From positions 1,612,001-1,676,000 of the forward strand of contig NZ_CP064954.1 in assembly GCF_011038655.2 (NCBI RefSeq): DNA of 64,000 bases, given 5' to 3'. Positions 5,776-62,733 of this stretch are shown here, one piece after another; positions within the stretch are counted from its first letter, which is position 1, and each line of letters opens with the position of its first letter. The notes below the pieces were generated by a model. The model had not been told where the DNA came from, made no database searches, and was given only the letters and a program-made list of their open reading frames with translations. The stretch comes from Corynebacterium lizhenjunii (GTDB lineage: Bacteria; Actinomycetota; Actinomycetes; Mycobacteriales; Mycobacteriaceae). The translations under genes and the position numbers were made by a program.

Positions 5776-6347
5776 TATTTCTCTCCTTCCACGTGCTTAT
5801 GGCCCTTAGCCTGCCGATGCCCCCGGTGCACCGTCACCTTGCCCTGCTTGCCCGGCCAGACAGGGTGCTTGGCAGTGGCATCGGCAGCCAAGGGAGTGTC
5901 CTCGGCGTTGGCAAGGTCTGGGGAGCGCATATGACGGCCCAAGGTATCCAGGGGGTACTCATAGAAGGCTGCATCAAGCTCCGCGTGCGGGCCTTGGCCG
6001 GGCACGCCATAGTCTATCCCCTTTACGTGCGGGGCGAGGCGTTGTTCCATGTCCGCCAAGGATTCGACGATGGCCTTCGGGTCATTGCCCTGGACGGCTT
6101 GGACGATGACGATACGCGGCAGCCCCTCCCGGGGAGGCTCGCGCAGTCCCAGCGACAGCGTGCCCGGGGTGGCGGTGATAGACGAGGTGAACCAGAAAAT
6201 CTCCCACGCGTTTGTTATCCGGAGCGGATAGCGCACCACCACGGGATGGTAGCCGTTGTCCGCCTTGAGCGAGTCCAGGGACAAACTAAAGCCTGCGACA
6301 AAAATTTCCTTGATGAGCCACGGAACGTAGGTCAATACGGTTTTCAT
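5775..6347 (-). CDS. mrpE: Mrp antiporter subunit E
   Basis: 190-residue MrpE/MnhE-family protein. The N-terminal third is membrane-associated and contains WLIKEIF and a segment ITNAWEIFWFTSSITATPGT, close to the conserved NSITLTPGT region of the family. The C-terminal tail is polar and His/Lys-rich (about residues 140-190), longer than in Bacillus MrpE. One copy of the window's iterated motif (TAGCCTGCCGATGCCCC, 5807-5823) falls within this tail. It begins immediately after the stop codon of mrpD. Confidence 0.9.
   Translation of the reverse strand: MKTVLTYVPWLIKEIFVAGFSLSLDSLKADNGYHPVVVRYPLRITNAWEIFWFTSSITATPGTLSLGLREPPREGLPRIVIVQAVQGNDPKAIVESLADMEQRLAPHVKGIDYGVPGQGPHAELDAAFYEYPLDTLGRHMRSPDLANAEDTPLAADATAKHPVWPGKQGKVTVHRGHRQAKGHKHVEGEK
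5807..5823 (+). repeat. Iterated 17-mer motif, strict copy
   Basis: The sequence TAGCCTGCCGATGCCCC lies antisense within the 3' part of mrpE. It is one of the strict copies of the dispersed motif described in the findings, and a second core copy in the opposite orientation lies about 55 bp away (5877-5886). Confidence 0.6.
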
Positions 6348-7883
6348 TTAACGGCCCTCCCTTGCGGCCAGGTCCGGCAGCGCTACCGCGTCGGTGCCCA
6401 GCACTGCTTGCGTGTAGCTGGCGGTATCCAACAGATCCTCGGCTGCTGCCAGGGTGACGTCGATGACGGGCCCCGAGAGGATGAACATGCACAGCGAGCC
6501 CATAATAAGTGCTGCGGACGGGGCCATGAGCTTTTTCCGGATGACCAACTCGTGCGGAACCTTTTCTACCGGAAGGTCCTTGCCCCAGAAGACTTCCCGC
6601 CACACGCGCAGCATGGACAAGAATGCGGCGAAGGAAGCGACCACGATTGCGCCGATGACCACCCAAGCCCAGGCGTTGCCCACCCGGGCGATCTCTACGA
6701 CGAGCATGACCTTGCCCCACATGCCAGAAAATGGGGGAAAGCCCACCACGGAGAAGGCACCAGCGGCGAAGATCCAGGCCAGAATCGGGTCACGGCGTGC
6801 CAGTCCCGACAGCTTGGACAGGCGGCCGGTGCCGTAGGTCTCCTCTATGGCACCGGAAGCCAAAATGAGCGAGCCCACGGTGAGCATATGGTGAATGGTA
6901 TAGAGGATGCCCGCAGCAAGGGCACGCTGGGCGTCTGCCGAAAGGAACGCGAGCATGACCAGAATCATGGGCATGCCGTTGAGCATCTGGTAGCCCAGCA
7001 CCCGGCGGATGGAGTTCTCCCCCAGACCACCGAAGGCGCCGATGACCATGGAAATGAGCATGGCGACGACAATAAGGGTGCCCCAGCGCGGGTCCATGTC
7101 AAACAGGTGCACGTAGAGGCGGTAGAGCATGTACACCGCAACCTTGGTATGCAGGCCGGAGAACAGACCCATGACAGCCGCTGACGTCCCCGGGTAGGTG
7201 CGCGGCAGCCAGGATTGCACCGGGAACACGCCCGCTTTCGCGGCAATGGCGATGACGATGAGCCCGGAAGCCACCGTAACCGGGCCGCCACCGGCGGCCG
7301 CGCCTTCCAGAGCCGCCAGGTTGACGCTGCCGGAGGTGGCGTAGACGTAGCCCACGCCCACCACCAGCAAGGTCGAGGCAAACAGATTGACCAGCACAAA
7401 GGCCCGGCCTGCCGCCAGGCGCGACCACGTTCCGGACATGGTGATAAGCCCGTAAGAGGGCAGCAGCATGACCTCGATGAACACGAAGAAATTAAACAGG
7501 TCCGCGGTCAGCAGGGCGCCGCACACACCGGTGATGAGGATCAGCGTCAGCGACGGGTAGTAGCGCGACTTAGTCTCACCACCCACGATGGCAAACCAAT
7601 TCGCGCCGAAGGCGACAATCATGGTGGTAATGAGCATCAGCGCCGAGAAAGAATCCGCCGCCAGGGCGATACCAACGTTGCCCGGATACAGGCCCACGCT
7701 GTGCGCCACTACCCCGTTGTTCATGGTGAACACCAGCAAACCCAGGCCAGCAAAAATACCAATGCCGGGGATTACCAGCATGATGCCGTCGCGCACCGCC
7801 CGCCACGGGGCCAGCAATGCAAACGCGGCAGCCACCAGCGGCACCGCGGGAAACAGCGGCAGGAGTTGTTCGACAGTGTGCAT
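6348..7883 (-). CDS. mrpD: Mrp antiporter subunit D
   Basis: 511-residue polytopic protein of the proton-translocating NADH-dehydrogenase subunit (NuoL/M/N) superfamily, with about 14 hydrophobic segments. Conserved elements include FFVFIEVMLLPSYGL (the acidic residue in helix 5), AAKAGVFPVQSWLP (the conserved Lys/Pro loop) and GFPPFSGMWGK. With MrpA it forms the likely ion-conducting core of the antiporter. It directly abuts both mrpC and mrpE. Confidence 0.94.
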   Translation of the reverse strand: MHTVEQLLPLFPAVPLVAAAFALLAPWRAVRDGIMLVIPGIGIFAGLGLLVFTMNNGVVAHSVGLYPGNVGIALAADSFSALMLITTMIVAFGANWFAIVGGETKSRYYPSLTLILITGVCGALLTADLFNFFVFIEVMLLPSYGLITMSGTWSRLAAGRAFVLVNLFASTLLVVGVGYVYATSGSVNLAALEGAAAGGGPVTVASGLIVIAIAAKAGVFPVQSWLPRTYPGTSAAVMGLFSGLHTKVAVYMLYRLYVHLFDMDPRWGTLIVVAMLISMVIGAFGGLGENSIRRVLGYQMLNGMPMILVMLAFLSADAQRALAAGILYTIHHMLTVGSLILASGAIEETYGTGRLSKLSGLARRDPILAWIFAAGAFSVVGFPPFSGMWGKVMLVVEIARVGNAWAWVVIGAIVVASFAAFLSMLRVWREVFWGKDLPVEKVPHELVIRKKLMAPSAALIMGSLCMFILSGPVIDVTLAAAEDLLDTASYTQAVLGTDAVALPDLAAREGR

Positions 7884-8318
7884 TTATACCTCCCCTCCTT
7901 CCGCGTTCTTAATGCGCTCCACAGCGTTGGCAGAGCGGGCCAGGATTTCCCGGTTCTGGGCATCACGACCCAGGGTGCTAAAGGCGTGGTCGATGGTGTT
8001 GTCATCCACCGGCTCCACCACGTCCGTGTCATCATTAGCGCCCATGGCGGCCATGGTCAGCAAGATAGTGGACGTGGCCATAGAAATCACCACCGCGGTC
8101 AGTACGAAAGCCTGCGGAAGAGGATCCGCCATCTGGTCCATGGAAGTCACCGACGGGAAGGACTCGCCGCGGTAAGAGTAGACGCCCGTGGCCAGCAGTG
8201 TCAGGTTTGCGCCGTGACCAAAAGCCATCATGCCTAGCACAATGCGCACCAGGCCGCGCTGCTGAATGAGGTAGACGGCAGAGCCGATAAGCAGGGCAAT
8301 GGTTAATGCCAGAATCAT
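7884..8318 (-). CDS. mrpC: Mrp antiporter subunit C
   Basis: 144-residue homologue of NuoK (MnhC/PhaC). Three membrane helices occupy the first 100 residues, with the conserved GLVRIVLGMMAFGHGANL region and DPLPQAFVLTAVVI, the NuoK-like DPLPQALVLTAIVI signature. A polar tail of about 35 residues follows. The start codon overlaps the mrpA stop. Confidence 0.94.
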   Translation of the reverse strand: MILALTIALLIGSAVYLIQQRGLVRIVLGMMAFGHGANLTLLATGVYSYRGESFPSVTSMDQMADPLPQAFVLTAVVISMATSTILLTMAAMGANDDTDVVEPVDDNTIDHAFSTLGRDAQNREILARSANAVERIKNAEGGEV

Positions 8319-11263
8319 TACTTCACACCTCCCTGCGGGCGCTCCCCGCGGTCAAGCAACCCCAAAGGTCGCGAGGACGGATTAATTGGGGCCGGGTAAG
8401 GATCATCTGCATCCTCTACCGCGATCTGCGGGGTATTAGGCAGCGAGGAATTATCGTCGTGAATCCACGGCAGATAGTCGCGTTCGGTACCCGGGCGCAA
8501 GTAGCCACCCAATGCATTGATGGCCATTGTCAGCATGCCCAGCACCGCTAGGTAAATACCCAGGTCAAAGATCAGCGAGGTAGTCCAGTGCTGGCCAAAG
8601 GCGTGGCCGTGGATAGCGGTGAGGAAGCCGCCATTGCCCAGGCCACCGTGCCAGTAGCCAATAAACCCGGCGGCCAGCGCGATAATAATGCCCACACCGG
8701 TGAGGTGAATAGGCGTCATCCGGCCAAAGACGATCTCATCAGAACCACGCGAGAGGTAGGTCAAGCCGATAGCCGCGCCCATAATCAGCGCGGCCGGGAA
8801 ACCGCCACCAGACTCATTGTGTCCGCGGAAGAACACCAGCACCGACAGCACCACCAGAATGGGCACCACAATGCTCAAGCCCTTACGTAGCGGCACCGAG
8901 TTCAGCTGAGACTGGCCAAACGGCGCCGGGCGGGTACCGGAAGTAAACGGGAAACGCGGCAGCGTAGAGGTAATCGCGGCGATAACCACCGCGGCCATAC
9001 CCAGCACGGAGAGCTCGCCCAACGTATCGAGGGCACGGAACTCCACGATGATGGTGGCCACCACATTGTCGCCACCGGTAATCCCCGGGGCTTCCGAGAG
9101 GTACCACAATGCCAGATCGGAGCGCCCGTTGCGGCCCATCAGGCCCCACACGCCCAGGAACGCTGCCACACCGGCTAATACCGCAATGACAATCGACCCC
9201 ACTTTGCGCTCGGTGTCCGGCACCGGGTGAAACTTCTCCGGCAGGTAGCGCAACACCATCATCATCACGATGACAGACAGCGCCTCCACCGTAAACTGCG
9301 TCAGCGCCACGTCCGGCGCGCCCAGCAAGAACATCTGCAAGGTCACGCCCGTGCCTGCGGTACCGATCATGACAGCACCGGTGAGTCGATTGCGCGTGCG
9401 CACCAAACCCCACATGGACAGTGCCACGATAGCCAGGGGCAACAGGTCCCAAGCATTATCCAGGCCCTCCACGCGCGGTGCCAGCGGGACACCATCGACG
9501 CCATCGCTAAGCACCGTTGCACCCGTCAGCGCCAGAATCAGCACAATGATGGGCAGAATAAGCCGCGAAGGATTATGGGTATCCGACATCTTGCCCACAA
9601 AGACCCCCACAGACGTTGCCGCCTTGTGCACGCCCTCCAGGAGCTCATTGCCCGTAGCGGGCACCAAACGCTTACCCTCAAAGGCCGCCCACAGTGACTT
9701 GCGGTAGACCATCCCGACAGCGCCGACTGCAAGCACCGCAACAGAAATCAACAGCGGCGTATTAATGCCATGCCACAGGCTCAAGTGCGTATGGGTCTCC
9801 ATGCCCACAGCCGCCACAACCGCATCCACTGGCCCATCCAGTGCCCCCATGAAGAAGACCACCGGCAAAGACATAAAACCTGGCAGCGCCGCAGGCAGCC
9901 ACAGGCGCACCGGAGCCTCATGGACTCCGGACATATCGCGCGGGCCATCAACAAAAGCGCCAAAGACAATCTTGGCGGAATACGTAAAGGTAAAGAAGGC
10001 ACCCACCGCGGCAGCTGCCAGCAAGACGATGGTGCCAGCGGTGCCAAAGGGGGCATCGGCAAGCGCGGTAAGCATGCCCTCCTTGGATACAAAACCAAAC
10101 AGCGGCGGAACTGCAGCCATGGACGCCGCACCAATCAGCACGGCGCCAAAGGTCCACGGCATCTTATTCCACAGCTTGCCCAGCCGGCGGATATCACGCG
10201 AGCCAGCCTCATGGTCAATGACACCAATTAGCATAAACAGCGAGGACTTAAACAGCGCGTGCGCCAGCGTGTGCACCACCGCGGCACCAATAGCAAAAGG
10301 CGTGCCCACGCCAATGGTGGCCACAATCCAGCCCAAATGCGACACCGTGGAGTACGCCGTGAGCTTCTTCAAATCCGTCTTCTGCACCGCAAAGACCGCG
10401 GACATCACCGCAGTGCCCATGCCCACCACAATCAGCAGCACATTCCACACCGCGACATCATGGAAAATAGTAGAGAAGCGAATGAGCAGATACACACCCG
10501 CCTTGACCACAGCGGCCGCGTGCAGGAAAGCCGACACCGGCGTCGCCGCTGCCATTGCCTCCGGCAACCAGAAATGGAAGGGGAACTGGGCGGACTTCGT
10601 AAAGGCAGAAACCGCCACCAGCACCGCCACTGCAGCGGTCACACCCGGGCGCTGCTCCCACACCCCGGACGCCAGAATGCCCTCAATACTGGTGGTTCCT
10701 GTCGCAGTAGCCGCCACCGCCAAAGCAGTCAACAGCGTCAAACCGCCGATGAAGGTCAGCACCAGCGTGCGCTGGGACCCCGCCTCCCCCGAAGACCCCG
10801 AACGCGCAATCAACATGAATGAAGCCAGGGACACCAATTCCCAAGCCAGGAACAACACAACGACATCATTGGCCAACACCAGTAGCAGAATGGACAGCGT
10901 AAAGGCCGTCATCAACGTGTAAAAACTGGTGTTGCCGTGCCCCTTGGGCAGGTAGGCAGCGGAGTAAATAAATACCACGCTGCCAATGACAAGCGCGAGC
11001 AAGGCAAAGAACACGCTCAGGGCGTCTCCGCGCAGGGAGAAACTCACGTCCACACCAGGGGCGAGGAAATCGCGAACCCACGTGACAGTCACCGTCAACG
11101 GCTCTCCGTCAAGGACCTGCGGTAGACGCGAACCGAGAACCGCCGCTGCCGCAACAAACAGGGCGGCCAGTGGCCAGCCCGCAGCACGATCGCAGACTTT
11201 CACGGTCACAGGAGCGAGCACAACTGCCAGTGCTGCGAGGAGGACTACATACACAAGAGTCAC
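8318..11263 (-). CDS. mrpA: Mrp antiporter subunit A (A-B fusion type)
   Basis: 981-residue first gene of the Mrp operon. Residues about 1-480 form a NuoL-like antiporter module, with FLAWELVSLASFML, TKSAQFPFHFWLPEAM (conserved Lys and His) and PLFGFVSKEG. A central region resembles the MrpA extension with its NuoJ-like part (FTVEALSVIVMMMVLR). The C-terminal section (about 800-940) contains GGGFPAALIMGAAIGL, characteristic of MrpB, so the usual separate B subunit is fused here, as in other actinobacteria. The start is GTG at 11261-11263. It encodes a LADAP stretch through one copy of the iterated motif (10050-10064). Confidence 0.94.
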   Translation of the reverse strand: MTLVYVVLLAALAVVLAPVTVKVCDRAAGWPLAALFVAAAAVLGSRLPQVLDGEPLTVTVTWVRDFLAPGVDVSFSLRGDALSVFFALLALVIGSVVFIYSAAYLPKGHGNTSFYTLMTAFTLSILLLVLANDVVVLFLAWELVSLASFMLIARSGSSGEAGSQRTLVLTFIGGLTLLTALAVAATATGTTSIEGILASGVWEQRPGVTAAVAVLVAVSAFTKSAQFPFHFWLPEAMAAATPVSAFLHAAAVVKAGVYLLIRFSTIFHDVAVWNVLLIVVGMGTAVMSAVFAVQKTDLKKLTAYSTVSHLGWIVATIGVGTPFAIGAAVVHTLAHALFKSSLFMLIGVIDHEAGSRDIRRLGKLWNKMPWTFGAVLIGAASMAAVPPLFGFVSKEGMLTALADAPFGTAGTIVLLAAAAVGAFFTFTYSAKIVFGAFVDGPRDMSGVHEAPVRLWLPAALPGFMSLPVVFFMGALDGPVDAVVAAVGMETHTHLSLWHGINTPLLISVAVLAVGAVGMVYRKSLWAAFEGKRLVPATGNELLEGVHKAATSVGVFVGKMSDTHNPSRLILPIIVLILALTGATVLSDGVDGVPLAPRVEGLDNAWDLLPLAIVALSMWGLVRTRNRLTGAVMIGTAGTGVTLQMFLLGAPDVALTQFTVEALSVIVMMMVLRYLPEKFHPVPDTERKVGSIVIAVLAGVAAFLGVWGLMGRNGRSDLALWYLSEAPGITGGDNVVATIIVEFRALDTLGELSVLGMAAVVIAAITSTLPRFPFTSGTRPAPFGQSQLNSVPLRKGLSIVVPILVVLSVLVFFRGHNESGGGFPAALIMGAAIGLTYLSRGSDEIVFGRMTPIHLTGVGIIIALAAGFIGYWHGGLGNGGFLTAIHGHAFGQHWTTSLIFDLGIYLAVLGMLTMAINALGGYLRPGTERDYLPWIHDDNSSLPNTPQIAVEDADDPYPAPINPSSRPLGLLDRGERPQGGVK

Positions 11264-13191: not shown

Positions 13192-13208
13192 TAGCCTGCC
13201 GATGCCCC
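13192..13208 (+). repeat. Iterated 17-mer motif, left of HNH copy 1
   Basis: The sequence is TAGCCTGCCGATGCCCC. An inverted copy lies at 15070-15086, so the pair brackets the first HNH gene. Confidence 0.7.
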
Positions 13209-14853: not shown

Positions 14854-15083
14854 CCGCCAGCAAACCAGCTAGAGGCCTCACTGCCAGCCGGCCGACCGGC
14901 CGGAAGGTATACGGCCTCTTGCCAGATGACAGGAATGCTGACGGTAGGGAGCTGGCGGCATCGGAAAGCACACAGCCCCAACCGCGACGACCAAAAACGC
15001 GCGGAAGGGGCCAGACGTGCGAGCACACCTACACGAAGCAAGAGGGGCGGGCGGCAGACGGTGAGGGACGGGGTATCGGCAGG
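14854..15083. other. 3' tail of HNH copy 1
   Basis: No gene seen. It is homologous to 35643-35870 with small insertions and deletions. It carries the conserved hairpin at 14975-15011 and ends with an inverted copy of the iterated motif. Confidence 0.6.
14975..15011 (+). terminator. Conserved hairpin downstream of HNH copy 1
   Basis: An outer stem GCCCC/GGGGC, an AA/AA internal loop, then an inner stem CCGCG paired with CGCGG across an A-rich loop. The 37 bases are identical in the second copy (35758-35794) although flanking bases differ, suggesting a selected RNA or DNA structure. There is no U-tract, so it may not be a simple terminator. Confidence 0.45.
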
Positions 15084-18905: not shown

Positions 18906-20417
18906 CTAGTGCTTGCCGATGCCGCGCAAGGTCGCCTGGTCTTCCTTGCTGCGGCGGGTTACCGGGTCGGTGCCGTCCCAGGCTTCGACGTTGGGCAGCT
19001 CGGGCAGCATGTCGCGGTGGAAGACGGGGTCCACGCCGCGACGACGCTGCTCGTTGTAGTTCTTCAGCAGTTTGATGGCCACGCCGCATAGCGGCACGAT
19101 GGCCGCGACGTTGAGCAGAACCATGATCGCTGCCCCGGTGTCTGCCAGGTCGAAGACGGTGCCCAGCGGGGCTACCGCGCCGTAGAAGACGAAGCCGAGA
19201 ACGGCGATGCGGAAGATCCACAAGGTGGCCTTATTGTCGCTGAGGTAGCCCACATTGGCTTCAGCCAAGTAGTAGTTGCCCAGGATAGAAGAAAACGCCA
19301 GGAAGAACAGGATGAAGGTCACGAAGTGGATACCCCAGGCGCCCACGGTGGACGCCAGGGCGTCTTGGGTAAGGGTGACGCCAGCAATCTCATCGGAGCC
19401 GAAGCTTTCGAAGTCAGTGCCCAGCAAAATGATGAAAGCTGTGATGCTGCACACAACCAGCGTGTCGAAATATACGCCCAGCGTCTGCACTAGGCCCTGC
19501 TTGACCGGGTGCGACACGGTGGCAGTTGCCGCGGCGTTGGGCGCGGAGCCTTCGCCGGCCTCGTTGGAAAACAGGCCGCGTTGGATGCCTTTCATCATGG
19601 CCGCACCGATGGTGGCCCCGGCGAACTCCCGCAGGCCGAAAGCTGCGCCGACGATGTCGCGGATCATGCCCGGGACTTCGCCGAAGTTGAGTACCACCAC
19701 GATCAGGCCCACAATCAAGTAGGCAGACGCCATAAACGGCACCACGACCTGGGTGATGTTAGCAATACGCTGCACACCCCCAATGATGATGATTGCCGTA
19801 ATGGCCGCGATGATCGCTCCCACCGTGGCCTTAAATCCAAAGGAGTCATTATCGAAGGACGTGGCCAAAGAGTCAATGATGGCGTTGGTTTGGAAGGCGT
19901 TGTAGAACCAGCCGAAGGTGATCGCAATGGCGATGGAGAAGACGACGGCCATCTTCTTCCAGCCCAGGCCGCGGTTCATGTAGTAGGCCGGGCCACCGCG
20001 GTAGGCATCTCCATCACGGACTTTCCACAGCTGCGCCAGGGTGGACTCTACAAAGGAGGTTGCCCCGCCTAGCAGCGCGATGATCCACATCCAAAACACC
20101 GCGCCCGGACCGCCGACAGAAATGGCCACGGCCACACCCGCGACATTGCCGGTACCCACACGGGAGGCCGCAGAGATGGTGAAGGCCTTGAAGGCAGAGA
20201 TTCCCCCGTAGTCGGCGTCTTGGTCCGCGCCTACCCCCTTGGGGCGCTCAACCACTGAACGGAACATGTCCGGGATCATCCGCAGTTGCACCACGGCGGT
20301 GCGGGCACCAAAATACACCCCGGCGGCGATAAGCAGCCAGGGTAGAATATACGTCCAGAGTGACGAGTTGATCGTCCCAATGACGGAACTGAAAAGATCT
20401 TGCATGCGCAATACCAT
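18906..20417 (-). CDS. Alanine/glycine:cation symporter family protein (AgcS)
   Basis: 503-residue polytopic protein of the AgcS (alanine or glycine:cation symporter) family. Conserved blocks include [32 protein letters not shown] and [23 protein letters not shown], which form the substrate/Na+ site in this family. About ten hydrophobic helices are visible. The frame opens with ATG at 20415-20417, and a second ATG four codons later (MQDLFSS) is an equally plausible start; neither has a strong ribosome site. Mycobacteria carry an unrelated gene at this position. The substrate is predicted only by family. Confidence 0.88.
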
Positions 20418-20467: not shown

Positions 20468-21301
20468 CTACGGGGCGCCTGGCAGCGTTTGGCAGGACGG
20501 GCACCAATGCGTGCCGCGCCCGGCGACTACCGCGCGGATTATCTCACTTCCACAGCGCTCGCACGGCTGGCCAGTTCGGCCGTAGGCCTGCAGGGAACGC
20601 GCAAAATATCCCGATTCGCCGTTGACGTTGACGTAGAGGGCATCAAAGCTGGTCCCGCCGGCGTCCAGCGCGCGGCGCATCACATCTTGTACCGCAGCCA
20701 CCAGCCTCAGCGCTTGGACCTGGCTCAGCTCGCAGGCACGCGTCTGCGGGTGAATCTGCGCCAGCCACAGCGACTCATCGGCATAAATGTTCCCCACACC
20801 GCTTAACACCGCCTGGTCCAACAACACAGCCTTGACCACCCTGCGGGTAGAGCGCAGGGCGGTGGCGGCGGCATCGGCAGAAAACTGCTCCTCTAGCGGG
20901 TCTGGGGCAATGTGGGAAATGTCTGCCCACGGCCCCAGGCGCCAGTACCCGAACGTGCGCTGGTCAACGAAGCTCAGTTGGGTGCCATCGTCCAATATTG
21001 CCCGGATGCGCACGTGCCGGGAATCCTGCGTGCCGACCCGCAGCTGCCCAGACATGCCCAGGTGAATGTGCAAGACGTCGCGGTGGGGATCCACTGAGTC
21101 CTCGCCAGCAAACTCACACCACAGGAATTTGCCGCGACGCCCGATGCCTTCTACCGTGCGCCCTTCCAACAGGCCTGCCATGGGCGCGTCCTGGCCCCGA
21201 ACAGCCCGCGGGTGCAGCACCTCAACACGGTCAAAAGTGCGCCCTGGCAGGTAGGTCTGCAAACCCCTGCGCACTGATTCGACTTCGGGTAGCTCCGGCA
21301 C
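20468..21301 (-). CDS. mutM: Formamidopyrimidine-DNA glycosylase MutM (Fpg)
   Basis: 277-residue bifunctional DNA glycosylase/AP lyase that removes 8-oxoguanine and other oxidised purines. The GTG start gives PELPEVESVRRGL after the initiator, with the catalytic N-terminal proline and Glu. The C-terminal zinc finger is present, with CERCGSEI and HWCPSCQ. The helix-two-turn-helix region includes QAVLSGVGNIYADE. A longer open frame extends through rnc but has no family similarity. It starts 4 bp after the rnc stop, forming an operon with rnc and the DUF177 gene. Confidence 0.95.
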   Translation of the reverse strand: MPELPEVESVRRGLQTYLPGRTFDRVEVLHPRAVRGQDAPMAGLLEGRTVEGIGRRGKFLWCEFAGEDSVDPHRDVLHIHLGMSGQLRVGTQDSRHVRIRAILDDGTQLSFVDQRTFGYWRLGPWADISHIAPDPLEEQFSADAAATALRSTRRVVKAVLLDQAVLSGVGNIYADESLWLAQIHPQTRACELSQVQALRLVAAVQDVMRRALDAGGTSFDALYVNVNGESGYFARSLQAYGRTGQPCERCGSEIIRAVVAGRGTHWCPSCQTLPGAP

Positions 21302-25123: not shown

Positions 25124-26239
25124 ATGCTCGTTCTTGTCGCCCCCGATTCCTTCAAAGGCACCGCCACCGCCCAGCAAGCCGCCGCCAGCATCGCCTCCGG
25201 AGTGCGCGCCAGTCTTCCCGATGCCACCGTGGTCACCCTCCCCATGGCCGACGGCGGGGAAGGCACAGCGCAAATGCTTGCCGATGCCGCCGCCGCGGCA
25301 GGCGCCGAGGTCCTCGCCGTTACCCTGCCGGTCACCGACGCCATCGGCAGGCTCAGCGAAGCCACCTACTACCTCAACACCACCGCCAACACCGCCTACA
25401 TTGACGTTGCCGCAGCCACCGGCCTGCCCGCGGTGGCAGACCGGCTCAACCCCCGGCAGGCAGATAGCTACGGCACAGGTGTACTTATTGCCGATGCCGA
25501 AGCCAAAGGCGCAACCCACATCATCCTGGGCCTGGGCGGATCTGCCACCATCGACGGCGGCTCCGGCATCCTGACCGCCCTGGGCGCGCCGGGGCATGAC
25601 GCAACTGGCTTAGCCCTACCCCAAGGCGGGGCCGCACTGGTGCGCCTCGAGACCTTTGACACCGCGCAACTCAACATGAAGGCCGCTGCGCTGGATTACA
25701 CGCTGCTAGCAGATACTCGCGCCACCCCTGCCGAAGCCGCCGTGATGTACGGGCCACAAAAGGGCTGCACGCGCGAAGACTTGGCGCTACTCACAGGCGC
25801 CATGCTACATCTGTGCCAACGCACGGGAATTTCTGCCGATACCCCCTCCTTTGGCGCCGCCGGGTGCATCCCGGTGGGACTGGCCTGGCTCTCGCGCTTA
25901 CTGTGGGGCAATGAGGACCACCTACGAGTGCTACCCGGCGCGCAGGTCGTCGCCCAGGCATTGGGGCTGCCCGCTCGCCTGGCCGAGGCAGACCTGCTCA
26001 TTACCGGCGAGGGCCGCTTTGACCAGCAATCGCTCACCGGCAAGGTGGTGGGCACGCTTGCTCAGCTAGCCGCCGAGCACCAGGTTCCCCTGGCACTTAT
26101 CGCCGGAGAGATCACTGCCCCGGAGGAACTCAACGCCGTAGCCGCCGTGGAGCTGTCCGGCCACGGCCCCCTACCGGAGCAACTACGCGCGGCAGCGGCA
26201 GCGGTTATCGCACAATATCAAGCGTCCACGGGTAAATAG
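25124..26239 (+). CDS. Glycerate 2-kinase (GlxK/GckA family)
   Basis: 371-residue type-1 glycerate kinase that phosphorylates D-glycerate to 2-phosphoglycerate, feeding glycolysis just above pyruvate kinase. Family blocks visible are the N-terminal APDSFKGTATAQQAA, MADGGEGT (about residues 41-48), the glycine-rich HIILGLGGSATIDGG, and near the end LITGEGRFDQQSLTGK. Length is normal. Its stop lies 35 bp inside the 3' end of a convergent small gene. Two codon runs (LADA, ISADTP) coincide with copies of the iterated motif. Confidence 0.92.
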   Translation: MLVLVAPDSFKGTATAQQAAASIASGVRASLPDATVVTLPMADGGEGTAQMLADAAAAAGAEVLAVTLPVTDAIGRLSEATYYLNTTANTAYIDVAAATGLPAVADRLNPRQADSYGTGVLIADAEAKGATHIILGLGGSATIDGGSGILTALGAPGHDATGLALPQGGAALVRLETFDTAQLNMKAAALDYTLLADTRATPAEAAVMYGPQKGCTREDLALLTGAMLHLCQRTGISADTPSFGAAGCIPVGLAWLSRLLWGNEDHLRVLPGAQVVAQALGLPARLAEADLLITGEGRFDQQSLTGKVVGTLAQLAAEHQVPLALIAGEITAPEELNAVAAVELSGHGPLPEQLRAAAAAVIAQYQASTGK

Positions 26240-32163: not shown

Positions 32164-32180
32164 GGGGCATCGGCAAGCTA
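32164..32180 (-). repeat. Iterated 17-mer motif at the lgt stop codon
   Basis: Reads TAGCTTGCCGATGCCCC on the minus strand; its TAG is the lgt stop codon. Confidence 0.7.
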
Positions 32181-35853: not shown

Positions 35854-35870
35854 GGGGTATCGGCAGGCTA
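35854..35870 (-). repeat. Iterated 17-mer motif, right of HNH copy 2
   Basis: TAGCCTGCCGATACCCC on the minus strand; its TAG is the stop of the duplicated gene fragment. It is in inverted orientation to the copy at 34054-34070. Confidence 0.7.
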
Positions 35871-40989: not shown

Positions 40990-41805
40990 TTAGTCCTCTT
41001 CTTCCGATTGTTCCTGCAAGGCCGCCAGCAAGGTGGCATGTACCTCAGGGGTGCCCACTACTAAGCCTGCCGATGCCGCCGTCCACTGCCTTCCCTCCGG
41101 GTCCGTCGCCGTGCCCCCGGCCGCACGCACCAGCAGGGCACCGGCGGCATTGTCCCAAGGGTGGGCAGAATAGTTGACCGCCCCGGCAAACACACCTTGG
41201 GCAACGAAGGCGGTGTCTACCCCCACGGATCCGGTCATGCGGGGGCGCAGGCCGGTAGACAGCAAGTTGGCATAATTTTGTGGGCTCAGGTGGGTAGAGC
41301 AGCCGACGTGCCTGATGGCGCTGGCGGCGGCAACACCGCCCTGGGTGGTGGCGCCCGCGGGAGCAACACCGCCCTGGGTGGTGGCGCTGGCGGGAGCAAC
41401 TGCGCCGTGGCTGCGCAACACCCCTCCTTCGGCTGCAGCGACGCGGCGGCCAAGCAGCGGAAAACTGGCCACCGCCACCACCGGCTGCCCGCGGTGGAGC
41501 AGTGAAACCAGAATCCCGCAGAGGGGGTTTCCGGCGGAATAGTTGGCAGTGCCGTCGATCGGGTCAACTACCCACACGGTGTCCTGGCACAGGTTGCCGC
41601 CGAATTCCTCACCGTAGACGGCAATTCCGGTGAATTGGGTCAGCGCGGTGCGCAGACGCTGCTCGATGGCCCAATCCACCTGGGTGACAAACCCACCGCC
41701 ACTTTTTTGCTGGGCCGGTGGGGCCCCTAGCCCCTGGATAAAGAGGGGCTCAACCTCGTCTACTGCCGCCTCGGCGACAGCGAGGAGCGCACCTGGCGTG
41801 TGCAT
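40990..41805 (-). CDS. impA: Inositol monophosphatase family protein (ImpA/HisN-like)
   Basis: 271-residue Mg-dependent phosphatase with the family motifs GEEFGG and [12 protein letters not shown] (metal ligands) and [16 protein letters not shown] near the end. In C. glutamicum the gene at this place in the his operon is impA; a related enzyme (HisN) is the histidinol-phosphate phosphatase. This product may serve either role. An insertion of about 45 residues around position 135-180 is built from repeats of the type [10 protein letters not shown], encoded by 30-bp DNA repeats at about 41333-41400, and is absent from usual family members. Confidence 0.9.
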
Positions 41806-42622: not shown

Positions 42623-43255
42623 TTAGAAGGCCTGCAACCAGTTGCGCAGCAAGGCTGCACCGGCATCGCCAGATTTTTCTGGATGGAACTGGGTAGCCCA
42701 CAGCGCCGCGTGCTCCACAGCTGCAACACAGCGGTCCCCACCGTAACTGGTCCAGGAGACGGCGGGGACGGGGGTATCGGCAGACTCAAGCTGGAACTGG
42801 CGCACCCCGTAGGAATGCACAAAGTAGAAGCGCTCATCTGCAGGCAGGCCAGCAAACATAAGGCTGCCTGGAGCGATGTCTACCGTGTTCCACCCCATGT
42901 GCGGCAGCACAGGGGCCTGAAGGCGCTCAACCACACCCGGCCACTGGCCGCAACCGGCCGCCTGCGTGCCGTGCTCAGTGCCGGATTCAAAAAGCACCTG
43001 CATACCCACGCAAATGCCCAGCACCGGGCGCTGTGTTGCCACCCGCTGCGCGATTATGTCCGGGCCGCCCACAGATTCCAATCCCTGCATGCACGCCGCG
43101 AAAGCGCCCACCCCGGGAACCAGCAAGCCATCGGCCTCCGCAGCAATGAGAGGATCCGCAGTAATGGTAACCTGCGCCCCTACCCGTTCCAGCGCGCGCT
43201 GAGCCGAACGGAGGTTGCCTGCCCCATAATCCAAAAGGGCAACGTGTGAAATCAT
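42623..43255 (-). CDS. hisH: Imidazole glycerol phosphate synthase, glutaminase subunit
   Basis: 210-residue class-I glutamine amidotransferase that feeds ammonia to HisF. The nucleophile Cys82 is in [13 protein letters not shown], and the His/Glu of the triad lie in [10 protein letters not shown] (about 191-193). The oxyanion region [10 protein letters not shown] is typical. It follows the MFS gene by 3 bp. Confidence 0.96.
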
Positions 43256-44854: not shown

Positions 44855-45499
44855 CTAGAGTGCACCCTTTGTCGAAGGAATGCCAACTACCCGGCCGTCG
44901 GGCGCAACGGCATGGCGCAGGGCGCGCGCCACGGCCTTGTATTCGGCCTCCGTAATGTGGTGGGGGTCGCGACCATAGCGCACATTGACGTGGAGAGTAA
45001 CCCCGCTATGGGCGGCGAAAGTCTCGAAGAAGTGGCGGTTAATCACGGTGGCGTAGTGCCCGCCGATGATTTGCCACTCCAGGTTTTCCGGCTCGCCATT
45101 CATCACGAAGTAAGGTCGGCCGGAGATGTCTACGACGGCTTCCACCAGCGCCTCATCCATGGGAAGCAGTTGGGAGCCAAAGCGGGTGATTCCCGCCTTG
45201 GTGCCCAGTGCTTGGGCGAAGGCCTTGCCCAGGACGATCGCGGTGTCTTCGACGGTGTGGTGGGCGTCGACGTCGATGTCGCCATCGGCACGCACCCGCA
45301 GGTCAAAGCAGCCGTGGGTGGCAAAGGCGGTGAGCATGTGGTCAAAGAAAGGCAAAAGGGTACGAATGTCAGATTTCCCGGTGCCGTCCAGATTGATCTC
45401 TACTTCAATGTTCGACTCCGAGGTTCGGCGCTGGTGGGAGCCTATTCTTGCCGATGCCCCCGTCGCCTCCCGCTCGCCTGGGTGTTGTTGTGTGCTCAA
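44855..45499 (-). CDS. hisB: Imidazoleglycerol-phosphate dehydratase
   Basis: 214-residue Mn-dependent dehydratase, the stand-alone IGPD type. Family blocks include [47 protein letters not shown] and the late [11 protein letters not shown]. The first 25 residues are variable; in them the iterated motif contributes TGASARIG. It ends GVPSTKGAL-like, normal for actinobacteria. Confidence 0.96.
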
Positions 45500-45571: not shown

Positions 45572-48114
<2,543 letters not shown>

Positions 48115-48178: not shown

Positions 48179-48724
48179 CTATACGGATAGGGTTTCCTGC
48201 CGCGTACTGGGGCCTTGCCCCTGGGCTTCCCAGTCGCTATCAGCACTAACAAAGGCGGCGGACCAATACGCCAACATCGCGCCAAAAGAACTGCACACCC
48301 ACGCCACTCCCGGGGACATCGCGGGCACCCAACTAACAGTTTGGCCAGGCTGGACGGAATCTGGCGCAACACTAGTGGCCGTAGCACCGCCACAGACAAA
48401 GAATGCCGCCGCCCCCGCCAGCGCTACAACGCCCACCCACAACAGCATGCCGATGCCCCGCTGGTCCCCCGCGCGCACATACGCCAGGCTTCCCAGCACC
48501 AGGCCCAATAAAGTCGTTATCAGCGCAAAGCTTCCCAGGGAGGCAAACTGGACATCCGCCACGGTGTCTACGCTGACGTGGCCGTCGCCCACCGCCTGGC
48601 CGCTGACGGCGGGGCGCCACAACCCCCACAGCGCCCCGGCCGCACTATAGGCTATGAGCGCGCAGGCCAACACTCCAGCCCCGGCACCCAGGCTGCGCCG
48701 CGTGTCAGACTTCATTGCCCACAT
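48179..48724 (-). CDS. Membrane protein of unknown function
   Basis: 181 residues with four hydrophobic helices (about 12-35, 62-82, 92-112, 138-158) and a hydrophilic C-terminal tail ending RQETLSV. Two starts exist, ATG 48722-48724 with GGGG upstream and ATG 48713-48715; I used the first. The pattern loosely recalls DUF2567-type membrane proteins of actinobacteria, but I cannot name the family with confidence. It is upstream of hisD on the same strand with 64 bp between them. Confidence 0.7.
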   Translation of the reverse strand: MWAMKSDTRRSLGAGAGVLACALIAYSAAGALWGLWRPAVSGQAVGDGHVSVDTVADVQFASLGSFALITTLLGLVLGSLAYVRAGDQRGIGMLLWVGVVALAGAAAFFVCGGATATSVAPDSVQPGQTVSWVPAMSPGVAWVCSSFGAMLAYWSAAFVSADSDWEAQGQGPSTRQETLSV

Positions 48725-49780: not shown

Positions 49781-50381
49781 GTGCACCTTCATCGCGACTT
49801 AATTGTCTCCACCGCAGTGGCTTTGCTCAATGAATACGGCCTGGCAGATACCACCATGCGCCGCGTGGCCACCACGTTGTCGGTTGCCCCCGGCGCGCTG
49901 TATTGGCACATCAACAACAAGCAAGCCCTCATCGCAGCCATCGCGGATTACATCGTGGGGCCGGTGCTCGACGCGCCTGCCACGGACGCTACGGAGCTAA
50001 GCCGCCGGCTGCGCCAACGCCTGCTAGCCTTCCGCGATGGAGCTGAGGTGGTCAGCGCAGGCCTGTCCCAGGTGGATAACCCCACGTGGTGGCGGTTGGT
50101 CGAGCACGTCGAGCAGTCCTTGGCCGCCAGCGTTGAGTGCGCGGCCGTCCCGGAGAGCCTGCGTGCGGCTGCGACCGCCCTGATTCATCTGACGGTGGGT
50201 GCCACCACCTTCGAGCAGTCCCGCGGCCAGTTGGCTGCCTTCGCCGCAGCCGCCCCGCCTGCAGAGCCCGCTGAGCCTGCCGATGCCGCGCTTGCCGATG
50301 CCGCTGAGCCTGCCACGTCCGAACTGGAGCGGGCGGTGGCCTTTATCATCCGTGGACTTCAGTCCACTACTGTGGAAGATT

Positions 50382-52591: not shown

Positions 52592-54055
52592 GTGCCCGTC
52601 CCACCCACCACTGTCAGCGCCCACGGAGCCCAGCTGGGCTTTTGCGCCGAAGCTTTGCTGATCCAGCATTCTTTCCTGGCGCAAAGCCTGGGCCAGCCGC
52701 GCGAGGAAACCGTGCCCTGGTCGGAAATTGACCAGGTAGAACTCGAGTCCACGCCGGCCGCGTGCTTCGATGTAGTCCATCTCCACACCGCCAGTGGCCG
52801 CCGTCGCTTGCGTTTTGCGCCAGGCACTGCGGCGCAAACGGCCCAACGCCTGCTGGAGGCAGGAATGGCTGGGGAGATCGCAAAACCGGCAAACGGAGAT
52901 GAGGCCGCTACCACGGCAGAGGCCTTAGCCGGCTTGGATTTCACCGCCGTGGATGTGGAGACCGCTAATGATGATTGGGGCTCCATCTGCGCCATCGGCG
53001 CTGTGCGCTACCGCGATGGCCAGGAGGTTGCCTCCCGCAGCTGGTTATGCACTCCCCCGCCAGGCATGGAGGAGTTTGCAGCAGTCAATGTGTCCATTCA
53101 TGGCATCACGTCGCAGCAGCTTGCCGATGCCCCCTCCTGCGCCCAAGCCCTGCAGGAGTTGCTGGGGTTCCTGGGCGAGGATGTACTGGTGGCCCACAAC
53201 GTCCAATTTGATGCCACCGCACTGCAGCGCGCGGCGCAGGCGTGCGAGGTGGAGCTGCCAGAGATTTCCCTGGCCTGCTCGCTAGCACTGGCGCGCGATG
53301 CCTCCCGGGCGGGAGTATTGAGCGTGGACAACCATCGCCTGCCAACGGTGCACGCCGCGCTGGGTGGGCCAGAATTTACCCACCATGACGCCACGGCGGA
53401 TGCCCGCGCCGCTGGGTTCATTATCACCGGCCTGGCACAGGTCTGGGCACGCCAACAAGATTCTGCGGTGGCACAGCTCTGGGCGGAGAAGCAGGATGCT
53501 GGGAAGGCTGCGGGCGAAGGGGGCATCGGCAAGATAGCCCAATTGTGCGCTGCCCGGGAGTTCACCTTGGGCACGCTGCGCACCGGCGAGGTGATGCCCG
53601 TGCTGCGCGCCGCCACCGCGCCAACTGCCCCGGAGGATCTGGGCGCGGGCACGGATTTCCGGGATAGCACCCGCAATGCTGGGCGGGGTGAGAACGGGCG
53701 CAGTGGTCGGCGCTCGCCTGCCCCGTGGGCTGCGGTATCCACGCCGGATGCCGTTCCGGAACCAGATTCTTCCGCTGACCCGGATAATCCGCTCTTTGGC
53801 CAGCACGTGACCCTAACTGGCGAGTTTTCCCCTTATGACAAGGGCATGCTGTGGGAACGCCTGGCGGCAGCCGGGGCGCAGGTAGGCAAGTCGGTGACCA
53901 AGAAGACCACCGTATTGGTGCTGGGAAGCTGGGCCACGCAGACCTCAAAGGAAAAGCGCGCCCATGAGCTTATTGCTAAAGGCCAAGACATTGCACTGTG
54001 GCCGCAGGAGCAACTGCTTGAGGCGCTGGGCCTAGATATTCAGCCGCCGTTTTAG
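52592..54055 (+). CDS. DEDD exonuclease with C-terminal BRCT domain
   Basis: 487-residue protein. The N-terminal 100 residues form a PH-like region of unknown role. A DnaQ-type 3'-5' exonuclease domain follows (about 112-285), with FTAVDVETAN (DxE), VLVAHNVQFDATAL and THHDATADARA. A Ser/Arg-rich linker leads to a BRCT domain (about 405-485: LFGQHVTLTGEFSPYD and GAQVGKSVTKKTTVLV). This layout occurs in actinobacterial 'DNA polymerase III epsilon'-like proteins, which are probably repair exonucleases rather than the replicase subunit. The start is GTG with AGGAAGGA upstream. Confidence 0.88.
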   Translation: MPVPPTTVSAHGAQLGFCAEALLIQHSFLAQSLGQPREETVPWSEIDQVELESTPAACFDVVHLHTASGRRRLRFAPGTAAQTAQRLLEAGMAGEIAKPANGDEAATTAEALAGLDFTAVDVETANDDWGSICAIGAVRYRDGQEVASRSWLCTPPPGMEEFAAVNVSIHGITSQQLADAPSCAQALQELLGFLGEDVLVAHNVQFDATALQRAAQACEVELPEISLACSLALARDASRAGVLSVDNHRLPTVHAALGGPEFTHHDATADARAAGFIITGLAQVWARQQDSAVAQLWAEKQDAGKAAGEGGIGKIAQLCAAREFTLGTLRTGEVMPVLRAATAPTAPEDLGAGTDFRDSTRNAGRGENGRSGRRSPAPWAAVSTPDAVPEPDSSADPDNPLFGQHVTLTGEFSPYDKGMLWERLAAAGAQVGKSVTKKTTVLVLGSWATQTSKEKRAHELIAKGQDIALWPQEQLLEALGLDIQPPF

Positions 54056-55904: not shown

Positions 55905-56300
55905 CTAGGCGCGGCCGCGGCGGTCCATGCCGCGGAATTTCTCCATCTCGCGGCGCTCCCGCTTGGTCGGCCGGCCCGCACCCCGGTCTCGCACGGGCAC
56001 CGCAGGAATAAACGCCGCTGGTGGCGGCGGTGGGGCATGGTCGATGTAACAGCTACGCGCTAGCGAGGCACCTACCCTTTTGCGTACTGTGGCCAGCACT
56101 TCTAAGTCATGCTCGTGGTGGTTGCGCCACACACGCACCCTGTCACCCGGCACCACCTGCTGGGCGGGCTTGGTTGCCTTGCCGTTGAGCTTGACGTGGC
56201 CGGCTTTGACGGCATCGGCAGCCTCGCTGCGCGTCTTAAACATGCGCACCGCCCACACCCAGGCATCAATGCGCACCGGGAGGCCATCTGGGGAAGTCAC
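55905..56300 (-). CDS. S4-domain RNA-binding protein (Hsp15/RqcP type)
   Basis: 131-residue protein with an N-terminal S4 domain (RIDAWVWAVRMFKTRSEA, VKLNGKATKPAQQVVPGDRV) and a basic Pro/Arg-rich C-terminus (RPTKRERREMEKFRG). Such proteins bind 50S-tRNA complexes or rRNA in ribosome rescue. A GTG start at 56298-56300 is adjacent to the stop of the next gene upstream (TAGGTG). Confidence 0.88.
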   Translation of the reverse strand: MTSPDGLPVRIDAWVWAVRMFKTRSEAADAVKAGHVKLNGKATKPAQQVVPGDRVRVWRNHHEHDLEVLATVRKRVGASLARSCYIDHAPPPPPAAFIPAVPVRDRGAGRPTKRERREMEKFRGMDRRGRA

Positions 56301-58646: not shown

Positions 58647-59231
58647 ATGCGCCAACACCGTGTGTCCGTGGCCCTCGTCGCTGCCGTTAGCACCAGCCTT
58701 GCCTTGCTGAGCCCCGCCGTCGCCCAGGCGGAGTCCAGCAAGCCTGGCTCCTCCCAGCCTGCTGCCTCCGCTTCTGCCACCCCGGGCACCCAGCCTGCCG
58801 ATACCCCCGCTACCGCACCCTCCACCGAACCCTCCGCTGGCGAAACCCCTGCAGATGCCAACGCCATCAGCGCCGAAGAGTGCAAGGCGCAGGTGGAGGC
58901 CGCTAAGAAGGCCCACCGTGAAAAGGGCGGATCTTCCTTCGTAGGCCCGGGTGAGTTCGCCCAGGGCGTGATCAATGGCTATGGCTCCTCCGGCATGCCA
59001 AAGCTGCCGGAGTGCGCCCAGAAGCCTGGTGACAAGAAGGATGATGATCCTTACAAGAAGCCCGAGTTCCAGATTTTGAACGTTCCTGATTCGGTTATTG
59101 AGGCTTTCACCTGGATCGGCGCCATCATGTCTGGCATCGCGGGCATGATTCAGCTGGTGACCGTCATCGCTAAGTTCAACCCGGACGTTGCCAATATGAT
59201 CCGCCACCAGCTCAAGGGCCTGGCCCGCTAA
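58647..59231 (+). CDS. Secreted protein with hydrophobic C-terminal helix
   Basis: 194 residues. A Sec signal peptide (about 1-28, ending AVAQA) precedes a Ser/Pro/Ala/Thr-rich region (30-75), a central segment with two Cys (EECKAQVEAAKK and LPECAQKPGDKK), and a C-terminal hydrophobic stretch around IGAIMSGIAGMIQLVTV, then MIRHQLKGLAR. It could sit in the mycolate layer or membrane. I do not recognise the family. The GAGGAG ribosome site fixes the start. A perfect terminator follows. Confidence 0.75.
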   Translation: MRQHRVSVALVAAVSTSLALLSPAVAQAESSKPGSSQPAASASATPGTQPADTPATAPSTEPSAGETPADANAISAEECKAQVEAAKKAHREKGGSSFVGPGEFAQGVINGYGSSGMPKLPECAQKPGDKKDDDPYKKPEFQILNVPDSVIEAFTWIGAIMSGIAGMIQLVTVIAKFNPDVANMIRHQLKGLAR

Positions 59232-59373: not shown

Positions 59374-60582
59374 TTAGTACAGCTCTGCAGAAGCGATCTC
59401 TGCACCCTTGACCAGGGACTCCAGCTTGGCCCAGGCCAGCTGCTCATGGATGCGCCCGCCCAGACCGCAGTCCGTGGAGGCAATCACGTTGTCCGGGCCC
59501 ACCAGCTCAGCGAACTGGATAATTCGGTCTGCGACCAGACGCGGGTCCTCGATGAGGTTGGTAGAGTGTGAGACCACACCAGGGATGATCACAGTCCCCT
59601 CCGGCAGCTTGCGGTCCTTCCACACGCGCCACTCCGCAGCGTGGCGAACGTTGGCGGCCTCGAAGGTAAAGCCGCCGACCTTGGCCTGCAAAATTTCATC
59701 GACAATCTCCTCGAAGGGGACATCGGTGGAGTGCGGGCCATGCCAGGAGCCCCAGCAGATATGTAGGCGCACCTGAGAAGGATCGATCCCCTCGATGGAG
59801 GCGTTGATGGCTTCCACATTCTTGCGCACATAGCTGCGGAAGTCCTCGTAGGACGGCTCCGGGTTGATCTGGTCGAATGCTTCTGCCAGGTCCGGGGCGT
59901 CAAGCTGCACGGTAAAGCCGGCATCGGCAATGGCCTTGTACTCATGGGACATCACCTGGGCGGTGGCAGCCAGCAGCTCATCGTAGTTGGGATAATACAA
60001 GTTGCGGATGCGCGCCGCAGAACCCGGCGATACCGCAGCGACGAAGCCCTCAGCCTGTGTGCCAGCGGCGTTGAGACCAGTGCGCAGGTGCTGCAGGTCT
60101 GCTGCCAGGGCTGCTTCACCGATGTAGGACAGCTCGGATTCAATGGTGGGCAACAGCAGCGGCTTTTTTCCTACCCACACACCAGAGGTGGGGTCCGCGT
60201 AGGCCTCTGCAAACGCGTGCTGGTCACGGCGGTCAAAGAAGGCAGTCAGCTCCACGTTACCCGGGGTGTAGCGGACAATTTTGCCGGCTGCGTCCGGCTC
60301 TTGAGGGTCGGTGGGGCGCAGCCCACCCAGGCGACTAAAGGAGTAGGTCCACCAGGAGCCGAAGTCGATGGAGTCCAGCATCGCGTGGCCGTACTCGCCT
60401 TCATTGACGATGTCAATGCCCAGGTCCACCTGGCGTTGGACCACCTTGTTCACGGAGTCTTGCAGGACCTCGTGGAAGCGCTCAGTGTCAATCTCGCCAG
60501 CCAGACGCTGCTGGTTAGCCTCCAGCAGCTCCTTGGTGCGTGGCAGGGAGCCAACGTGGGTGGTACGAATCTTATTAGCCAT
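59374..60582 (-). CDS. MetE-like cobalamin-independent methionine synthase family protein
   Basis: 402-residue protein homologous to the C-terminal barrel of MetE and to epoxyalkane:coenzyme M transferases, too short to be full MetE (about 750). The N-terminus is RTTHVGSLPRT. The likely zinc ligands are HICWG (His and Cys) near 268 and the Cys of IASTDCGLGG near 373. VLQDSVNKVVQRQVDLGIDIVNEGE is the conserved front segment. It is preceded by two McbR operator boxes, so it belongs to the sulfur/methionine regulon. It may be a methyl- or sulfur-transfer enzyme; the substrate is unknown. Confidence 0.82.
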   Translation of the reverse strand: MANKIRTTHVGSLPRTKELLEANQQRLAGEIDTERFHEVLQDSVNKVVQRQVDLGIDIVNEGEYGHAMLDSIDFGSWWTYSFSRLGGLRPTDPQEPDAAGKIVRYTPGNVELTAFFDRRDQHAFAEAYADPTSGVWVGKKPLLLPTIESELSYIGEAALAADLQHLRTGLNAAGTQAEGFVAAVSPGSAARIRNLYYPNYDELLAATAQVMSHEYKAIADAGFTVQLDAPDLAEAFDQINPEPSYEDFRSYVRKNVEAINASIEGIDPSQVRLHICWGSWHGPHSTDVPFEEIVDEILQAKVGGFTFEAANVRHAAEWRVWKDRKLPEGTVIIPGVVSHSTNLIEDPRLVADRIIQFAELVGPDNVIASTDCGLGGRIHEQLAWAKLESLVKGAEIASAELY

Positions 60583-62663: not shown

Positions 62664-62716
62664 CAGCGGCGCCTGCACCCTCTGACCTGCCTGCTCACGG
62701 CGGCGGGTCAGAGGCG

Positions 62717-62733
62717 GGGGCATCGGCAAGCTC
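62717..62733 (-). repeat. Iterated motif between pilin and dnaE
   Basis: Reads GAGCTTGCCGATGCCCC on the minus strand, in the 118 bp separating the convergent pilin and dnaE genes. Confidence 0.7.

Follow-up and report, generated by a model that had tools for sequence, protein, structure and literature searches.

DNA uptake sequences (DUS) of the Neisseriaceae are non-palindromic words found on both strands. In this family, a word of 10-12 bases is present in about a thousand or more copies, often within genes (PMC3630211, PMC5031613), and is known in eight dialects (PMC3630211). In Neisseria, the minor pilin ComP reads the word, of which variants with a single deviation are seldom seen (PMC12616744, PMC5031613). 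Uptake sequences are described from two Gram-negative families (PMC5031613, PMC3630211), and the distribution of DUS has served to locate mobile elements (PMC7371117). The transformation machinery of Micrococcus luteus, a member of the Actinobacteria, is stated to include TadA pilus ATPases and ComEA (PMC6667448). Another highly iterated word, highly iterated palindrome 1 (HIP1) of cyanobacteria, is the palindrome GCGATCGC and has been linked to orphan methylases (PMC4390886). The element considered here is a 10-base word, TGCCGATRCC, iterated in a stretch of 64,000 nucleotides of the Corynebacterium lizhenjunii chromosome (contig NZ_CP064954.1, positions 1,612,001 to 1,676,000), called the window below, and its properties are those of a probable uptake sequence.

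The window holds 31 exact copies of TGCCGATRCC, 15 on the plus and 16 on the minus strand, where 100 dinucleotide-preserving shuffles give a mean of 0.45. The longer 16-mer AGCYTGCCGATRCCCC occurs 10 times exactly and 26 times with at most two mismatches (0.27 expected for the 26), and TGCCGATGCC leads all 10-mers of the window under a Markov model of order 3, with 24 copies seen against 0.5 expected, or 1.3 under order 4. An earlier note, made from the letters of the window, had counted 30 copies used equally on both strands where base composition predicts less than one. Each of its sites was found again and one, at 3914, had been overlooked; 28 of its coordinates are exact and two were shifted by one base, the correct positions being 47176 and 50293. 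The shuffles agree with its low expectation, and the strands are balanced in the window as in the whole genome. The same note held that its reading would be refuted if a higher-order background predicted about 30 copies per 64 kb or if the word were absent from the rest of the chromosome, and the counts show the opposite on both points.

The complete genome, a single contig of 2,607,882 bases, carries 557 forward and 544 reverse copies of TGCCGATRCC, 1,101 in total or one per 2.4 kb, whereas the reversed word used as a control occurs 11 + 6 = 17 times. Twenty evenly spaced 20-kb stretches together with the window form a sample of 464 kb that holds 193 copies, and one extra stretch brings it to 484 kb, with 182 TGCCGATGCC and 20 TGCCGATACC. 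In these 484 kb, 2.5 (order 3) and 4.7 (order 4) copies of TGCCGATGCC are expected from Markov models once the words are masked. Deviations by one base are rare, as in uptake sequences: the 182 perfect copies of TGCCGATGCC compare with 211 summed over its 29 one-mismatch neighbours (66 and 90 expected), TGCCGATACC being treated as part of the word and set apart from them. By local GC skew, 98 copies are leading and 95 lagging in the window and the 20 stretches, stretch L180 being left out of this count. No replichore or strand preference was thus found, and FtsK orienting polar sequences (KOPS) were set aside because the orientation of the word does not follow the replichores. On the 20-kb scale the copies form no clusters, the counts in 21 stretches varying as a random scatter would (mean 8.1, variance 8.4). 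Neighbouring pairs less than 50 bp apart number 13 against 3.7 expected, 12 of them direct and most spaced by about 15 bp, and five of the eight pairs 42-100 bp apart are inverted.

Gene prediction relied on a simple codon score, which gave a coding fraction of 0.777 that is probably too low. Inside the predicted genes, and spread along their length, lie 158 of 202 copies; the other 44 lie outside, and some of these may sit in missed genes because the simple finder probably under-calls. Of the genic copies, 98 give xADA or xADT in the sense direction, 31 give GIG and 21 ASA in the antisense direction, and 8 are read otherwise. The word's codons are used more than expected in each of the named readings: GCC-GAT-GCC is used for 105 of 187 Ala-Asp-Ala tripeptides (15.8 expected), GCC-GAT-ACC for 16 of 44 ADT (4.8 expected) and, for antisense copies, GGC-ATC-GGC for 37 of 92 GIG (13.1 expected) and GCA-TCG-GCA for 21 of 132 Ala-Ser-Ala (0.4 expected). 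The tripeptides ADA, GIG and ASA also exceed what amino-acid frequencies predict (187 vs 118, 92 vs 45 and 132 vs 111), while ADT is not in excess (44 vs 52 expected). Since genes favour the word's codons beyond expectation, the DNA word and not the peptide is selected, as the earlier note had supposed. That the word is genome-wide and under selection at the DNA level is beyond reasonable doubt.

The conserved sequence extends past the core. Among the 193 copies of the 464-kb sample, the immediate flanks favour A-G-C-Y before the core and S-C-C after it. The fullest consensus, AGCTTGCCGATGCCCC, is found at copies outside predicted genes. From about 5 to 30 bases past the word, C averages 0.38-0.51 and G 0.21-0.32, whereas the two bases are nearly balanced upstream of it (copies close to a stretch end are omitted from these profiles). 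In the window's genome (G000), downstream C amounts to 0.43 at sense, 0.45 at antisense and 0.47 at non-genic copies, with G at 0.27, 0.23 and 0.22, respectively; because it is alike at the three kinds of copies, this polar C-rich tract is not a by-product of the reading frame. Homology beyond the word is scant: among the 20,301 pairs formed by the 202 copies, only 11 have a flank with at least 30 identical bases out of 50.

Dialects of this word run through the genus. The leading words in stretches of other Corynebacterium species, GCTTCTCGACG, GCTTATCGACG, GCTTTTCGACG and GCTTGCCGACG, share the form GCTTNNCGAYG. Its two spellings, GCTTNNCGACG (ACG) and GCTTNNCGATG (ATG), were counted in 242 Corynebacterium genomes, which count thresholds divide into 163 ACG, 17 ATG, 8 with both, 1 with an unrelated word, 8 doubtful and 45 with none. 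A related word is therefore iterated in 188 of the 242 genomes, which carries to other Corynebacterium species what the earlier note had seen in one. The 163 GCTTNNCGACG genomes hold a median of 1,100 copies (range 195-1,964; reversed control, median 67), evenly distributed on the strands (mean z -0.02), and the 17 GCTTNNCGATG genomes a median of 964 (range 159-1,184; control, median 14; other form, median 69). The species of the window belongs to the GATG group, with 680 copies and a longer core. From matching counts, seven ACG genomes are inferred to be those of C. pollutisoli (G130), C. senegalense (G147), C. glaucum (G061), C. silvaticum (G148), C. riegelii (G145), C. pelargi (G126) and C. 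curieae (G035). The C-rich downstream tract is present in all eight GCTT-type species sampled. It was not found in G012, a genome of 2.03 Mb whose unrelated word, TGACGNCGCG, occurs 563 times forward and 581 times in reverse (1,144 in total; control 50) with TT upstream, a word that no other of the 242 genomes carries at that level. The genomes passing both thresholds are G024, G052, G149, G180, G181, G195, G238 and G239; G024 clearly uses both spellings (1,337 ATG and 352 ACG), whereas the other seven reach only 150-165 ATG. These genomes are perhaps in transition or have a relaxed reader.

Outside the genus, no enrichment of GCTTNNCGACG was seen in 220 genomes from 30 other genera of the family, in which it stays, judged by eye, within about 2.6-fold of the reversed control, and 62 non-Corynebacterium loci of 9-24 kb contain at most three GCTTNNCGAYG each. 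An apparent word of Prauserella cavernicola (L059), GCGAGTCCCCC, was rejected: it belongs to a tandem array with a 21-base unit at 13765-14266, where 15 of its 17 copies form one run. Within Corynebacterium, word-less means lacking GCTTNNCGAYG and TGACGNCGCG, and no other convincing iterated word was found in G029, G043 and G131 (100 kb each), G112 and G241 (80 kb each), G007 (60 kb) or G206 (40 kb). In G029, GAAGGTCACCTAC and related 12-mers occur eight times in 100 kb (L182, L200-L203), with 0.01 expected. The three word-less rows are the earliest branches in a tree of 38 SMC proteins, on which, as drawn and with several forks open, the ACG and ATG spellings need three changes. A helicase tree of 16 tad loci places the word-less G043 among word-bearing species, which indicates loss of the word there. 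The rows of both trees are the species whose loci were available and not a balanced sample.

How one dialect may give way to another is seen in G001 (ATG) and G219 (ACG), aligned over 111 kb at 78.7% identity. The alignment covers 41 ACG words of G219, and at 26 of them G001 matches the other eight bases, its dialect base being T in 20, C in 5 and A in 1; conversely, 25 of the 44 ATG words of G001 are intact in G219, with C in 20 and T in 5. Shuffled patterns were intact in 160/803 and 102/475 cases and showed the partner's base in 13/160 and 11/102. This control was dropped as too lenient because the dialect base lies in a CG context and, in the main frame, at a third codon position where the change is synonymous, and non-word sites of the same five bases were used instead. 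Against these, the switch from G219 to G001 stands at 20/26 versus 57/140 CGACG sites (P 0.001), and that from G001 to G219 at 20/25 versus 62/326 CGATG sites (P 6e-10). The latter also holds against longer contexts, which may include worn words, namely CGATGNC (28/108, P 8e-7) and NCCGATG (17/80, P 2e-7). In-place re-spelling is supported for this one species pair, on about 40 words per direction. Taken with the genome counts, the switch indicates that the words are read base by base and that the taste of the reader changed between related species. When closely related species share a dialect, words are retained better than controls, with 36/41 kept versus 182/300 (P 4e-4) and, in a second comparison, 37/40 versus 334/459 (P 0.004).

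One of the 20 sampled stretches, and only one, is free of the word. This stretch (L012, genome positions 1,430,001-1,450,000) has no copy against 8.3 expected (Poisson 2.4e-4 for one stretch), and several of the 10 open frames scanned in it match phage capsid, portal and terminase families, together with a sub-threshold match to RecT. Phage BFK20 contains one GCTTNNCGACG and no GCTTNNCGATG in 43 kb, a count that, as with other phage records, is of little use unless set against the dialect of the host. The earlier observation is confirmed and proves to have been understated, as the genus-wide dialects, the in-place re-spelling, the polar C-rich tract and the absence from a prophage lay beyond its view.

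The genome of the window also encodes components that could take DNA up. The comEA gene (1,876,845-1,877,540) adjoins comEC (1,875,589-1,876,848; L263 5589-6848), whose product is short, with 419 residues, and matches only the Competence domain. A tad locus near 223.5 kb encodes CpaE-like, TadA, T2SSF and Rv3654c-type proteins; a small DUF4244 protein, also encoded there, matches Flp below threshold. Across the 242 genomes, ComEC and the Rv3654c-type pilin are each present in 241 and TadA in 239. A weak Pfam match of TadA (exponent of E at most 47) characterizes 34 of 44 word-less and 8 of 182 word-bearing genomes (P 4e-17), a test that omits 8 of the 242 genomes with TadA fragmentary or missing or without ComEC, as well as the 8 doubtful ones. 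For ComEC, the median exponents are 42 in word-bearing and 41 in word-less genomes (P 0.02). A relaxed or altered pilus function would yield the TadA contrast, as would common descent.

The word is probably a DNA uptake sequence for natural transformation via the Tad pilus with ComEA and ComEC. Cells would carry on their surface a sequence-specific reader, most likely one of the minor pilins or partners of the Tad pilus, with a preference for DNA carrying the word; the pilus would draw this DNA in, ComEA and ComEC would pass one strand, and homologous recombination would then replace the resident allele. Fragments with a good word would enter more often than those with a broken one, which would keep copies perfect and let new ones spread on both strands, words being tolerated in permissive reading frames. 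Freshly arrived phage DNA would stay unmarked and, when the reader's taste shifts, copies would be re-spelled across the genome, hence the dialects. The word, its density, strand neutrality and dialects, and the tad, comEA and comEC genes are seen directly in the sequences, whereas a role of the reader in DNA uptake, its place on the Tad pilus and the natural transformability of these species are inferred.

Several results weigh against this uptake model. The machinery does not predict the word because ComEC, TadA and the Rv3654c-type pilin are near-universal, and the word-less G043 itself carries tad genes and ComEC. The TadA exponents (medians of 52.5 in word-bearing and 44.5 in word-less genomes) come from statistics that ignore phylogeny. 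Comparing the tad regions of G001 and G219 identified no word reader, the least alike being the T2SSF-like (70%) and CpaE-like (74%) proteins, with the Rv3654c-type pilins judged by eye only. Close inverted pairs, frequent in Neisseria, are few here. Against the longer contexts CGACGNC (26/44, P 0.19) and NCCGACG (16/29, P 0.15), in which worn words may be included, the G219-to-G001 switch loses its significance. At about 73-89% identity, words are not clearly better kept than controls, the numbers being small and mixed, and the distant pairs give 2/6 words kept versus a control fraction of 0.46 (G001-G101), 0/2 versus 0.38 (G000-G128) and 2/5 versus 0.09 (G002-G009), so that single copies turn over. 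Finally, no report of natural transformation of Corynebacterium was found among the literature matches listed, subscription journals and preprints being outside their scope.

Other functions can be envisaged for such a word. An abundant internal nucleoid protein or a methylase might read it, as a mark of chromosome architecture or a modification site comparable with HIP1, and its genome-wide presence on both strands with a scatter free of clusters at the 20-kb scale would suit this role. It is nevertheless rather unlikely, as the word is not palindromic, ten fixed bases are long for a methylase site and selection on any one of about 1,000 sites is expected to be weak, yet one-base variants are few; biased transfer would also explain more easily that many sites switch one base in place. 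A recombination hotspot of the Chi type, at which a break-processing nuclease-helicase such as AdnAB or RecBCD would stop degrading and start recombination, would suit the word's iteration mostly within predicted genes, its species-specific spellings and its absence from a prophage stretch, and a single-strand reader could be served by the strand-polar C-rich flank. Known Chi words, however, lean to the leading strand, whereas neither the replichore counts (98 vs 95) nor the strand counts (557 vs 544) lean here, and the word is longer than known Chi words, so that this function appears still less probable.

The sequence might also not be read as DNA at all. A common Ala-Asp-Ala peptide or a codon bias could create the word, in line with the xADA or xADT reading of 98 among the 158 genic copies. 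Such an artefact is highly improbable, however, as 57 of the 158 are antisense, the word's codons are over-used in more than one frame, the 44 copies outside predicted genes show the fullest consensus and a change of the dialect base is silent in the main frame. The idea of remnants of a dispersed mobile repeat draws on the longer segment common to the copies at 35856 and 39191 and, by eye, on 15072; with so few copy pairs (11/20,301) sharing flanks and most copies within predicted genes, its probability is close to negligible.

The copies of the window are collected in Table 1. Those at 35856 and 39191 have flanks identical at 50/50 and 42/50 bases and correspond to a repeated 3' end of a gene that holds TGCCGATACC; the surroundings of 15072 resemble, by eye, this common segment. 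The window further encodes, at 60885-62663, an LPXTG-anchored major pilin of the SpaH/EbpB family.

Table 1. Copies of the iterated word in the window; each row is an exact match to TGCCGATRCC, and intergenic positions are those given by a simple gene finder.
Word	Position	Strand	Remark
TGCCGATGCC	3914..3923	+	exact match; overlooked in the earlier note
TGCCGATGCC	5812..5821	+	exact 16-mer
TGCCGATGCC	5877..5886	-	inverted partner of 5812, 65 bp
TGCCGATGCC	10052..10061	-	exact match
TGCCGATGCC	13197..13206	+	exact 16-mer; intergenic
TGCCGATACC	15072..15081	-	exact 16-mer; directly past smc stop codon
TGCCGATGCC	18914..18923	+	exact match
TGCCGATGCC	20870..20879	-	exact match
TGCCGATGCC	25279..25288	+	exact match
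TGCCGATGCC	25489..25498	+	exact match
TGCCGATACC	25834..25843	+	exact match
TGCCGATGCC	27541..27550	-	exact match
TGCCGATGCC	32166..32175	-	exact 16-mer; intergenic
TGCCGATGCC	32667..32676	-	exact match
TGCCGATGCC	34059..34068	+	exact 16-mer
TGCCGATACC	35856..35865	-	exact 16-mer; in segment common with 39191
TGCCGATACC	39191..39200	-	exact 16-mer; in segment common with 35856
TGCCGATGCC	41068..41077	+	exact match
TGCCGATACC	42773..42782	-	exact match
TGCCGATGCC	45449..45458	+	exact match
TGCCGATGCC	47176..47185	-	exact match
TGCCGATACC	48085..48094	-	exact match
TGCCGATGCC	48448..48457	+	exact match
TGCCGATGCC	50278..50287	+	direct partner of 50293, 15 bp apart
TGCCGATGCC	50293..50302	+	direct partner of 50278
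TGCCGATGCC	53122..53131	+	exact 16-mer
TGCCGATGCC	53522..53531	-	exact match
TGCCGATGCC	56211..56220	-	exact match
TGCCGATACC	58796..58805	+	exact 16-mer
TGCCGATGCC	59920..59929	-	exact match
TGCCGATGCC	62719..62728	-	exact 16-mer; intergenic

If the word is indeed an uptake sequence, many corynebacteria would be naturally transformable, which would offer a route to transform hard-to-handle species, and genus-wide dialects in an actinobacterium would show that uptake sequences arise repeatedly. On balance, the genus would represent a third independent origin of DNA self-recognition tags and the first in Gram-positives, in which most Corynebacterium species would use Tad pili and a reader of GCTTNNCGAYG (one species an unrelated word), the spelling would help to define partners in gene exchange and the genome would re-spell about a thousand sites with the taste of its reader. 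This reader could be found by comparing species that stand one word base apart. In the pair G001/G219, dispersed sites seem to have changed in concert and in place, so that models of molecular drive become testable. No match listed for the string TGCCGATGCC appears related by title, and neither an earlier uptake sequence nor an iterated word in Corynebacterium was found among the matches listed, again with subscription journals and preprints out of scope. In the passages covered, a 2017 scan of spaced motifs reports only CRISPR-related pairs for Corynebacterium (PMC5217627).

The earlier note had likened the word to HIP1 or to uptake sequences, and the second comparison fits better. HIP1 is, like the word, highly iterated, but it is palindromic, whereas TGCCGATGCC and its complement GGCATCGGCA are not the same. 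Chi sites are iterated and species-specific, and the Corynebacterium word differs from them in having no strand bias (98/95). The uptake signal sequences (USS) of the Pasteurellaceae have flanking tracts on one side, which are A/T-rich. In Corynebacterium, the flank is C-rich and not A/T-rich, the sequence is unrelated and the function is proposed from sequence; the likeness lies in a short core, a genome-wide distribution and the existence of two versions in the family (PMC3630211). A flanking tract on one side only is a further shared trait. Micrococcus luteus belongs to another family, and the term 'uptake sequence' does not occur in the main text of the corresponding article (PMC6667448). 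The closest counterpart is the DUS of the Neisseriaceae, which resembles the Corynebacterium word in length, copy number, placement in genes, rarity of one-base variants and dialects between related species. Nevertheless, the DUS has an unrelated sequence and belongs to Gram-negative hosts with a type IVa pilus, whereas the Corynebacterium word, a putative uptake sequence, is that of a Gram-positive genus with a Tad pilus, is followed by a C-rich tract and forms few close inverted pairs.

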